Positions 10,014 through 14,846 of a stretch of DNA of 64,000 bases are shown here, in pieces (the stretch's first letter is position 1; every line of letters starts with the position of its first letter). The position numbers and the translations under genes are program-made. Below the pieces are notes generated by a model. The model was not told the DNA's origin. It saw only the letters and a list, made by a program, of their open reading frames with translations, and did not search any database. Source of the stretch: Pseudoalteromonas sp. Scap06 (GTDB lineage Bacteria > Pseudomonadota > Gammaproteobacteria > Enterobacterales > Alteromonadaceae); NCBI RefSeq assembly GCF_013394165.1, contig NZ_CP041330.1, positions 2,906,501-2,970,500 on the forward strand. Reading direction: 5' to 3'.

Positions 10014-10877
10014 CTAACTCATCGCGCTTTGTAATTTTTTCATTGCTGTTTTTTCCAGCTGGCGAACACGCTCTGCTGATACGCTGTATTTTTCAGCCAG
10101 CTCTTGCAGTGTTGCTTTATCGTCTGACAACCAACGAGCACTAACAATATCTTGAGAACGCTCATCAAGAGTTTTCAAAGCGCTAAATAAACGCGTATGT
10201 GACTGTTCTTGCCATTGTTGCTGTTCAATGTCGTCAGCTAAATCAGCAGAACCATCGGTTAAGTACTGTACCGGTGAGTAAGTACTAGTTGGCGCGTCAT
10301 CATTATCGTCGCCAGTTAAATCAAAGCCCATGTCTTGGCCGCTCATACGCGATTCCATTTCACGTACTTCTTTTTCACTCACACCTAGCTCGCTAGCTAC
10401 TGTGCTCACTTCAGCTTGGTTAAACCAACCTAAACGCTTTTTATTTTTACGTAAGTTAAAAAACAATTTACGTTGTGCTTTGGTCGTGGCCACTTTAACG
10501 ATACGCCAGTTTTTAAGCACAAACTCATGAATTTCGGCTTTAATCCAATGAACGGCAAATGAAACCAAACGTACACCCACTGATGGGTCAAAACGTTTTA
10601 CTGCTTTCATCAGTCCGATGTTACCTTCTTGAATTAAATCAGCTTGAGGTAACCCGTAACCCGAGTAGCTTTTAGCTATGTGCGCTACAAAGCGCAAATG
10701 CGACATAATGAGTTGCTTTGCAGCACTAAGATCGCCTTCTTCCTGAAGTCTTTTTGCAAGTTCCTGCTCTTGCTCAACTTTAAGCATAGGAATAGTACTA
10801 ACAGCTTGAAGGTAGCCGTCCATACTTGCGCTTTGTTGCCCAACTGTAAGTGCCATTGCGTATAAATCTTTACTCAT
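10014..10877 (-). CDS. rpoH: Heat-shock sigma factor RpoH (sigma-32)
   Basis: RpoH directs RNA polymerase to heat-shock promoters. The 287-residue protein has region 2 ([21 protein letters not shown], about 71-91), the RpoH-specific box [13 protein letters not shown] (about 135-147) and a region 4 helix-turn-helix ([20 protein letters not shown]). A strong ribosome binding site, GAGGTG, lies 5 nt upstream of the ATG. It follows ftsX on the same strand, as in E. coli, but has its own promoter region containing a perfect CIRCE operator at 10911-10937. HrcA repression is therefore likely to be added to the usual control of sigma-32. Confidence 0.98.
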
Positions 10878-10910
10878 TTTTCACCTCGGTGATAAACATT
10901 TGAAACCATC

Positions 10911-10937
10911 TTAGCACTCTTTTAGTAAGAGTGCTAA
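10911..10937 (-). promoter_or_regulatory. CIRCE operator (HrcA binding site) upstream of rpoH
   Basis: TTAGCACTC (10911-10919), a 9-nt spacer, then GAGTGCTAA (10929-10937) is an exact match to the CIRCE consensus bound by the heat-shock repressor HrcA. It lies 34 bp upstream of the rpoH start codon and overlaps the expected transcription start of the candidate promoter at 10943-10971. In the best-known cases CIRCE sits upstream of groESL or dnaK. Here it would place the sigma-32 gene under HrcA. No hrcA gene is in this window. Confidence 0.93.
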
Positions 10938-10942
10938 CTTGA

Positions 10943-10971
10943 ATTTAAAACTTTTTTGAATCATAAATCAA
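10943..10971 (-). promoter_or_regulatory. Candidate sigma-70 promoter of rpoH
   Basis: On the minus strand, TTGATT (10966-10971) and TTAAAT (10943-10948) are separated by 17 nt. The expected start falls at about 10936, inside the CIRCE element, which fits repression by steric block. The boxes match consensus only moderately. Confidence 0.5.
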
Positions 10972-11032
10972 GTGGTTTTTTTAGTGTTAAGTCAGTCTAC
11001 GCTAGGCGACTGAATAACCTATGAATTGATTT

Positions 11033-12872: not shown

Positions 12873-14846
12873 TTAAGCGTCGTCCTCATCTTGACTAAAT
12901 AGCGCGTCAATAAAGTCATCGCTCTTGAAGGTACGTAAATCATCAATACTTTCACCTACGCCAATGTAACGAATAGGAATATTAAACTTATCGGCAACGG
13001 CAAAAATAACCCCACCTTTAGCAGTACCATCAAGCTTTGATAATGTGATACCTGTTAAACCTACACATTGATTAAATAAGTTTACTTGGCTAATTGCATT
13101 TTGGCCTGTACCAGCATCAATAGTCAGCATCACTTCATGAGGTGCATCAGGGTCTACTTTTTTCATTACACGGGCTATTTTTTCAAGCTCTTGCATTAAG
13201 TTATCTTTATTTTGCAAGCGCCCTGCTGTATCAGCAATTAACACATCGACATTACGTGCTTTTGCAGCTTGAAAAGCATCAAATACTACCGATGCACTAT
13301 CAGCACCTGTATGTTGAGCTATTACCGGAATGCTGTTGCGTTCACCCCATACTTGAAGCTGCTCTACCGCTGCAGCTCTAAAAGTATCACCGGCAGCAAG
13401 CATGACCGACTTACCTTGATTTTGGAATTGCTTGGCCATTTTACCAATGGTGGTGGTTTTACCTACGCCGTTTACCCCTACCATTAAAATAACAAAAGGT
13501 TTTTTATCTGCTGGTATTTCTAAAGGCTGCTCTGCTGTTTTTAGCATAGTTGCCATTTCTTGTTTCATAAGCTCATAAAGCGCATCACCATCTTTAAGTT
13601 GCTTGCGATCGGCTGCATCAGTTAAATTATCAATAAGCTTCATGGTGGTATCAACACCGAGATCAGCAGTAAGTAACTGAGTCTCTAGCTCTTCAAATAA
13701 TTCGTCGTCAATTTTTTTACCGCTAAAAATTGACGAAAAACCAGAGCCAATATTAACTCGAGTTTTAAGTAAGCCTTTTTTGAGACGAGAGAAAAAGCCT
13801 TCTTTTTTAGGTTTTTCCGCTTTCTTTGCTTCTTCCTCTGCAAGCTCTGCGGTCAGTCGCTGTTGCTCTAGGCGTTCAGCCTCTTCTTCAGCTGCAATAC
13901 GCTGTTGTTCTAAACGCTCACTCTCTGCTTGTTCTGCTGCAATACGCTGTTGCTCTAAACGCTCATTCTCAGCTTTTTCTGCTGCAATACGCTGTTGTTC
14001 TAAACGCTCATTCTCAGCTTGCTCTGCTGCAATACGCTGTTGCTCTAAACGCTCATTCTCAGCTTGCTCTGCAGCAATACGCTGTTGTTCTAAGCGCTCG
14101 TTTTCAGCTTGTTCTGTTGCAATACGCTGTTGTTCTAAACGCTCATGCTCAGCCGCAATACGCTGTTGTTCTAAGCGCTCATTCTCAGCTTGTTCTGCTC
14201 CAATACGCTGTTGCTCTAAACGCTCATTCTCAGCTTGTTCTGCTGCTATGCGCTGTTGCTCTAAACGCTCATTCTCAGCTTGTTCTGCTTCAATGCGCTG
14301 TTGCTCTAAACGCTCATTCTCAGCTTGTTCAGCCGCAATACGTTGTTGTTCTAGGCGATCATTCTCAGCTTTTTCAGCTGCTATACGCTCTTGCTCTAAC
14401 AACATTTGCGCTTCTTGTTCTGCTAAACGTTGAGCTTGCTCTTGTCTTTGCTGCTCGGCATCTGCCTGTTGTTTAGCCAATAGCTCAGCGTTAGCTTGTT
14501 CAATCGCTTGTTTTTCTGCTGCCGCAGCGCGTTGTGCTTGCGCCTGTTTTTCTTGCTCTAAACGCTCTGTCTCTGCTTTTTCGGCAGCTATTTGTTGTTC
14601 GGCTTTTTCAGCTTGCTCTTGCGCTAAACGTTCTGCTTCAGCTTGTTCAGCTGCAATTCGGGCTTGTTCTAAACGTTCGGCTTCAGCTTGCAAACGCTCT
14701 GCCTCGGCCTTCTCTGCTGCTAAGCGCTCCTGTTCGGCTTTTTCTGCCTGCTCGTTTGCTAATGCTTGTTGTTTATCAGCTTCTGCTTGTTTTTTATCTG
14801 ACTTGCCAAAACCGAGCCACGACATGAATTTACTTTTTTTTGCCAT
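12873..14846 (-). CDS. ftsY: Signal recognition particle receptor FtsY with extended repeat coiled coil
   Basis: FtsY is the SRP receptor GTPase that docks translating ribosomes at the membrane. The C-terminal NG domain (about residues 355-650) is complete, with G1 GVNGVGKTT, G3 DTAGRLQ and G4 SKLDGTAKGG. The N-terminal A domain is very long (about 340 residues) and made of Glu/Gln/Ala/Arg-rich helix. Within it, residues about 142-330 are tandem 15-residue units of the form ERLEQQRIAAEQAEN. The total of 657 residues exceeds E. coli FtsY (497). The repeats probably form one long charged coiled coil that extends the membrane-targeting region. One unit is 3 residues short. Confidence 0.96.
   Translation of the reverse strand: MAKKSKFMSWLGFGKSDKKQAEADKQQALANEQAEKAEQERLAAEKAEAERLQAEAERLEQARIAAEQAEAERLAQEQAEKAEQQIAAEKAETERLEQEKQAQAQRAAAAEKQAIEQANAELLAKQQADAEQQRQEQAQRLAEQEAQMLLEQERIAAEKAENDRLEQQRIAAEQAENERLEQQRIEAEQAENERLEQQRIAAEQAENERLEQQRIGAEQAENERLEQQRIAAEHERLEQQRIATEQAENERLEQQRIAAEQAENERLEQQRIAAEQAENERLEQQRIAAEKAENERLEQQRIAAEQAESERLEQQRIAAEEEAERLEQQRLTAELAEEEAKKAEKPKKEGFFSRLKKGLLKTRVNIGSGFSSIFSGKKIDDELFEELETQLLTADLGVDTTMKLIDNLTDAADRKQLKDGDALYELMKQEMATMLKTAEQPLEIPADKKPFVILMVGVNGVGKTTTIGKMAKQFQNQGKSVMLAAGDTFRAAAVEQLQVWGERNSIPVIAQHTGADSASVVFDAFQAAKARNVDVLIADTAGRLQNKDNLMQELEKIARVMKKVDPDAPHEVMLTIDAGTGQNAISQVNLFNQCVGLTGITLSKLDGTAKGGVIFAVADKFNIPIRYIGVGESIDDLRTFKSDDFIDALFSQDEDDA
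13846..14421 (-). repeat. 45-bp tandem repeat array inside ftsY
   Basis: Units starting at about 13891, 13936, 13981, 14026, 14071, 14116, 14152, 14197, 14242, 14287, 14332 and 14377 are spaced 45 bp apart, except for one 36-bp step at 14116-14152. Each encodes about 15 residues with the core RLEQQRIAAE. All changes keep the frame. The array is prone to copy-number change by slippage or recombination. It is coding and not a CRISPR array: there are no unique spacers. Confidence 0.93.

Follow-up and report, generated by a model that had tools for sequence, protein, structure and literature searches.

In the classical HrcA/CIRCE regulon, i.e. the class I heat-shock response of Bacillus and many other bacteria, the repressor HrcA acts through the CIRCE operator on groESL and hrcA-grpE-dnaK-dnaJ, and is inactivated as GroEL is titrated away; in Escherichia coli, groES belongs to the sigma-32 circuit and is served by a sigma-32-type promoter. 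PMC545781 names groESL and hrcA-grpE-dnaK-dnaJ as CIRCE targets in delta-proteobacteria, and for Geobacter sulfurreducens its Table 8 contains, as a prediction made in 2004, a perfect CIRCE in front of rpoH, at -51. The rpoH locus of Pseudoalteromonas sp. Scap06 described here resembles that of G. sulfurreducens in its perfect CIRCE and in the predicted step from HrcA to sigma-32, but whereas G. sulfurreducens, according to the same source, has further CIRCE copies at both groESL and the hrcA operon, in Pseudoalteromonas the operator is found at rpoH alone. For the HrcA of Campylobacter, PMC8533110 reports an intrinsic thermosensor.

A preliminary description of this DNA had presented control of rpoH by HrcA as a departure from a textbook E. 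coli model that has no HrcA. With respect to E. coli this is sound: both systems have a sigma-32-type promoter at groES (here a sigma-32-like site), but the control E. coli genome gave no HrcA match (seven of 14 control genomes did, E. coli being among the other seven), whereas in this genome rpoH appears to be under a transcriptional repressor. Beyond the lineage of E. coli, however, the arrangement is not unusual. Amongst the best 80 of at least 591 confirmed rpoH loci, 34, many of them from beta-proteobacteria, carry CIRCE with at most two mismatches no more than 400 nt upstream, one has three mismatches and 45 have at least five, these last including Vibrio, Pseudomonas, Idiomarina, Colwellia, Glaciecola and enterobacterial loci. 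Taken with the Geobacter prediction, these 34 loci make CIRCE at rpoH a known, if under-noticed, arrangement. Two Lysobacteraceae loci (Luteimonas; L068 and L053) carry at rpoH a CIRCE variant, TTAGCAGTC-N9-GACTGCTAA, whose two arms bear matching changes. L068 has this variant in full, L053 departs from it by one more change, and HrcA specificity may be altered there. Among the papers listed in a search of the literature on Pseudoalteromonas and its family, for part of which the leading matches were considered, none dealt with control of rpoH by HrcA, and no description was found there of a one-gene regulon, a sigma-32-like promoter at hrcA, a sigma-32-HrcA loop or a remodelled four-cysteine HrcA, although some of the sites may already be listed by Permina and Gelfand (2003), who treat beta, gamma and epsilon regulons.

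The window, i.e. the whole 64-kb stretch of DNA analysed, contains rpoH on the minus strand at 10014..10877, encoding a sigma-32 of 287 aa (NCBIfam TIGR02392 and PRK06596 both above cut-off; 417.9 bits for TIGR02392 against a cut-off of 323.1). As the preliminary description had claimed, a perfect CIRCE precedes it: at 10911-10937, ending 33 nt from the rpoH ATG, the DNA reads TTAGCACTC-TTTTAGTAA-GAGTGCTAA, a 9-bp inverted repeat with a 9-nt spacer (entered without strand) that has 0 mismatches to the CIRCE consensus TTAGCACTC-N9-GAGTGCTAA and is the predicted HrcA operator. No other CIRCE match with up to three mismatches occurs in the window, and 100 shuffles of the window gave a mean of 0.02 such matches and at most 1. 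Across the whole 4.13 Mb genome the rpoH site is the sole match at 0-2 mismatches; nine more places match at three, and seven of these are nearly identical repeats of a single sequence. Chance as the source of the repeat is ruled out by the shuffles, the genome-wide scan and the order-wide co-occurrence with hrcA described below. A terminator scan picked up the repeat as a terminator-like element of the plus strand; this reading was rejected, as none of the plus-strand ORFs of at least 90 aa terminates at the repeat and the site tracks hrcA and rpoH in other genomes. Further along the window, at 12873..14846 on the minus strand, is encoded a protein, presumably FtsY, whose N-terminus is greatly extended by tandem repeats that are almost identical to one another (AEQAENERLEQQRIA and its variants).

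For the region upstream of rpoH, 38 sequences of the genus were taken and, one identical sequence having been dropped, 37 distinct ones were aligned. Beside the ribosome-binding site (10882..10887, minus strand; GAGGTG in 35 of the 38 sequences, including this one, and GAGGTT in three), the main conserved blocks are a pair of the form CTTGATT-17-18 nt-TAxATT and CIRCE itself. The pair reads here CTTGATT (10972-10966), 18 nt and TAAATT (10947-10942), and is the likely housekeeping promoter of rpoH (10942..10972, minus strand), the register of the -10 being our own reading. CIRCE begins about 4 nt past this -10 in the alignment and hence adjoins the candidate promoter of a heat-shock gene; with the conserved -35/-10-like pair directly upstream, it would be placed as an operator over the predicted transcription start. 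The earlier proposal that the operator overlaps the start of transcription fits this layout, but a strict sigma-70 promoter scan did not list the pair, and the start is itself a prediction. Within the alignment the CIRCE arms are fixed save for one base in two genomes, and the spacer varies except for the arm-adjoining T and A, which are fixed in 38/38.

The genome encodes an hrcA, the lack of which the preliminary description had named as fatal to its proposal. Its product matches PF01628, the C-terminal domain, at about 37.4-38.5 bits (37.4 in the domain search; Pfam cut-off 22.2), and the gene lies between nadK and grpE, the order nadK-hrcA-grpE being found in 35/35 loci of the family that were examined. 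The protein is 96% identical to one from Pseudoalteromonas sp. DSM 26666, and its residues 2-84 align, in a comparison of sequence only, to the winged helix of the HrcA in 1STZ, which we take to be that of T. maritima, with an E-value of 1e-12. Against the HrcA equivalog TIGR00331 the match is nearly full-length and scores 118.6 bits, below the cut-off of 197.2; as judged by these profiles the protein is a member of the HrcA family, and we do not assign it as the standard equivalog. Counting matches over the cut-off, PF01628 scores are 22-50 bits in the genus (36/36 genomes), 123-185 in the remaining genera of its family and 164-218 in the order's other families. A comparison of 27 of the 60 listed proteins of the genus clade with 20 of the outside proteins listed gave a mean identity in the winged helix of 73% within the clade and 43% to outside HrcAs, and in the remainder of the protein of 58% and about 15%, respectively. 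Given this low identity past the winged helix and the low equivalog score, sensing or DNA recognition could differ from those of the classical protein.

The presence of the operator follows that of the repressor. Across 247 genomes of the order, CIRCE with 0-1 mismatch occurs in 27, HrcA scores over the cut-off in the same 27, and neither is present in 220 (Fisher p ~1e-36, treating as independent genomes that are in fact related); in 27/27 of the genomes with CIRCE it stands at rpoH. More telling than this p value are the recurrence of the pairing in four families of the order and a split within one genus (g74), two genomes of which (G172, G196) have both hrcA and CIRCE and two (G109, G144) neither, these latter retaining rpoH with best upstream matches at 7 and 5 mismatches, respectively. 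A family sample of 147 genomes included 25 with hrcA, in 25/25 of which CIRCE is present at no more than one mismatch; HrcA also occurs in further family genera, among them Rheinheimera, Psychrosphaera and, as judged solely from protein names, Alishewanella, Arsukibacterium and Alkalimonas. Of the 122 family genomes without hrcA, two have a match at this stringency and seven at up to two mismatches. One of the two (G169) has CIRCE at rpoH in an assembly that is 95% complete, so that hrcA may simply be missing from the assembly; in the other (G182) the CIRCE-like match lies between two genes, away from rpoH, and is a nearly complete palindrome, which we would read as a hairpin. The five further genomes have two-mismatch matches, none of which was seen at rpoH among those examined (G181, G061, G200 and one in G103). 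Those of G181, G061 and G200 sit at the end of one type of coding gene, presumably for L-serine dehydratase, as does a three-mismatch match (L005) in the present genome; of the two matches in G103, one lies where a contig ends.

Retention of the repeat in relatives that keep rpoH, on which the preliminary description had also staked its case, is borne out by the genus sample, in which CIRCE stands at rpoH with up to two mismatches in 35/36 genomes. The exception, G016, has hrcA, and no rpoH was found in it (E up to 1e-30); its assembly is rated 100% complete, and the missing rpoH is probably an assembly gap. One further two-mismatch match, inside a coding region, was seen in G024. When exact arms with spacers of N6-N13 were sought in 60 genus genomes, gene context aside, 58 gave a match, one each except for G034, which has three; G029 has CIRCE with one mismatch, G016 gave no match, and in G017 the perfect-armed copy is one with an N10 spacer. 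Copies beyond the main operator were also observed: G034 (L110) and G017 (L123) carry, ~146 nt further upstream than the main CIRCE, a second inverted repeat that has perfect arms and a 10-nt spacer, of which G003 (L126) has an apparent decayed copy, and the third perfect-armed match of G034 lies elsewhere, with a 13-nt spacer. Tandem CIRCE pairs at rpoH were found in G094, G108, G172 and most genomes of family f7.

Which genes carry the operator differs between families. In the family of this genome (f1), 25/25 genomes with hrcA have CIRCE at rpoH and nowhere else at up to two mismatches, and in family f20 it stands at rpoH alone in 4/4 genomes (at most one mismatch); in families f7 and f14, CIRCE is also present at groES in 19/20 genomes (at most one mismatch; the exception is G352). 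A perfect CIRCE stands at groES in G041 and G048. The preliminary description had suggested seeking additional sites at groESL and hrcA-grpE, but none is present there: upstream of groES in the 25 f1 genomes, and upstream of hrcA in the 35 family loci, no CIRCE was found, the best matches having 7-9 mismatches in each case, so that neither the classical groESL target nor an operator for autorepression was detected in these samples. The locus therefore has in common with the classical regulon the operator, the repressor family and the (here predicted) place of the operator beside the transcription start, but differs in that the classical targets are chaperone operons, whereas here CIRCE is missing from both groES and hrcA, leaving the sigma-32 gene as the sole target found. 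With CIRCE at rpoH only in 25/25 hrcA genomes, and groES devoid of it, the distribution of sites in family f1 suggests that HrcA there represses a single target, rpoH; in the genus sample, the coding-region match of G024 and the third perfect-armed match of G034 weigh against this. At groES, a sigma-32-like site of the CTTG type, with 1-3 mismatches, was located at -87 to -134 in 24/25 f1 genomes (G192 having as its sole match one with three mismatches at -206), a count that has no shuffle control. At hrcA, a sigma-32-like site with 1-2 mismatches occurs in 13/15 genus loci against 2.2% of shuffles, these loci being related and not independent, and at up to two mismatches in 9/20 loci of other families against 1.3% of shuffles; in 11/20 of the latter the best match has four or more mismatches, which limits to the genus the support for a loop from sigma-32 to HrcA.

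We consider it highly probable that the repeat at 10911-10937 is a working HrcA operator and that, in the genus and the related genera sampled, rpoH is the sole gene that HrcA still controls. The main role of the repeat might instead be that of a hairpin in the leader RNA of rpoH, affecting mRNA stability or serving as a thermosensor: it would be transcribed if the start is as predicted, and its RNA can form a stem of 11 bp (z -3.9). Its presence, however, tracks hrcA exactly in the 247 order genomes, other families have this very sequence at groES, and its arms keep to the CIRCE consensus with no pairwise change, the genus variants in G017 and G029 each breaking a pair, all of which makes a primarily RNA-level function very improbable. 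Scarcely more credible is that site and HrcA persist as a relic devoid of heat-responsive regulation, with repression either constitutive or negligible. Such a state would suit a genus whose HrcA has diverged far from the rest of its family and for which a second HrcA target was not found, but it sits poorly with the upkeep of both partners: at least one perfect-armed CIRCE copy is kept in 58/60 genus genomes, and the hrcA frame is open in 36/36 (shorter in G029, at 232 codons). In addition, whole-gene omega lies at 0.03-0.06 in 8/10 species pairs (for the other two it could not be computed; dS is close to saturation), which indicates purifying selection on hrcA among the five species in the comparison.

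An alternative that leaves the operator in place concerns the signal. HrcA may still repress rpoH through CIRCE but now answer to a thiol signal, either redox or metal, in place of GroEL or heat, a proposal that we regard as rather unlikely but distinctly better than the two above. Four cysteines are invariant in 27/27 genus-clade HrcAs and absent at the same columns in 20/20 outside proteins; two of them fall in the winged-helix domain, one replacing a Ser that is invariant in outside HrcAs, and among 22 other HrcAs read from their loci the fourth column holds Cys in three and the other three columns in none. Invariant cysteines may, however, be structural. On the thiol proposal, the Pseudoalteromonas HrcA would be a dedicated rpoH repressor with its sensing half rebuilt round these residues, and redox or metal would gate the sigma-32 response instead of, or besides, heat; we put this forward with low confidence.

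Returning to HrcA as a heat-responsive repressor of rpoH, the two-layer circuit of the preliminary description, with HrcA set over the heat-shock activator, agrees with the presence of hrcA and with the site kept at rpoH across the genus. Its basis, read directly from the sequences, comprises the site, the hrcA gene, their co-occurrence, the sole-target status, the promoter layout, the sigma-32-like sites at groES and hrcA, and the signature of purifying selection; HrcA binding, repression of rpoH, release by heat and the course of the loop in time we infer. In unstressed cells, an HrcA dimer lying over the start of rpoH (about +1 to +27) would block the housekeeping promoter, and heat or misfolded protein would inactivate HrcA and thereby raise rpoH transcription. 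Sigma-32 would then turn on groESL and, in the genus, also the hrcA(-grpE) unit through the latter's own sigma-32-type promoter, such that restored HrcA would shut off rpoH and close a negative loop. HrcA would thus no longer control chaperones directly, and would have become the governor of their activator, sigma-32.

The order holds three states, i.e. HrcA with CIRCE at rpoH and groES, HrcA with CIRCE at rpoH only, and neither, and these look like successive steps from repressor-based heat shock to the sigma-32-only system of E. coli. On this distribution, we infer that rpoH may be the last HrcA target kept during that shift. If true, a one-target repressor driven by the very activator under its control would constitute, in marine bacteria that do not cause human disease, a clean natural two-gene feedback circuit.
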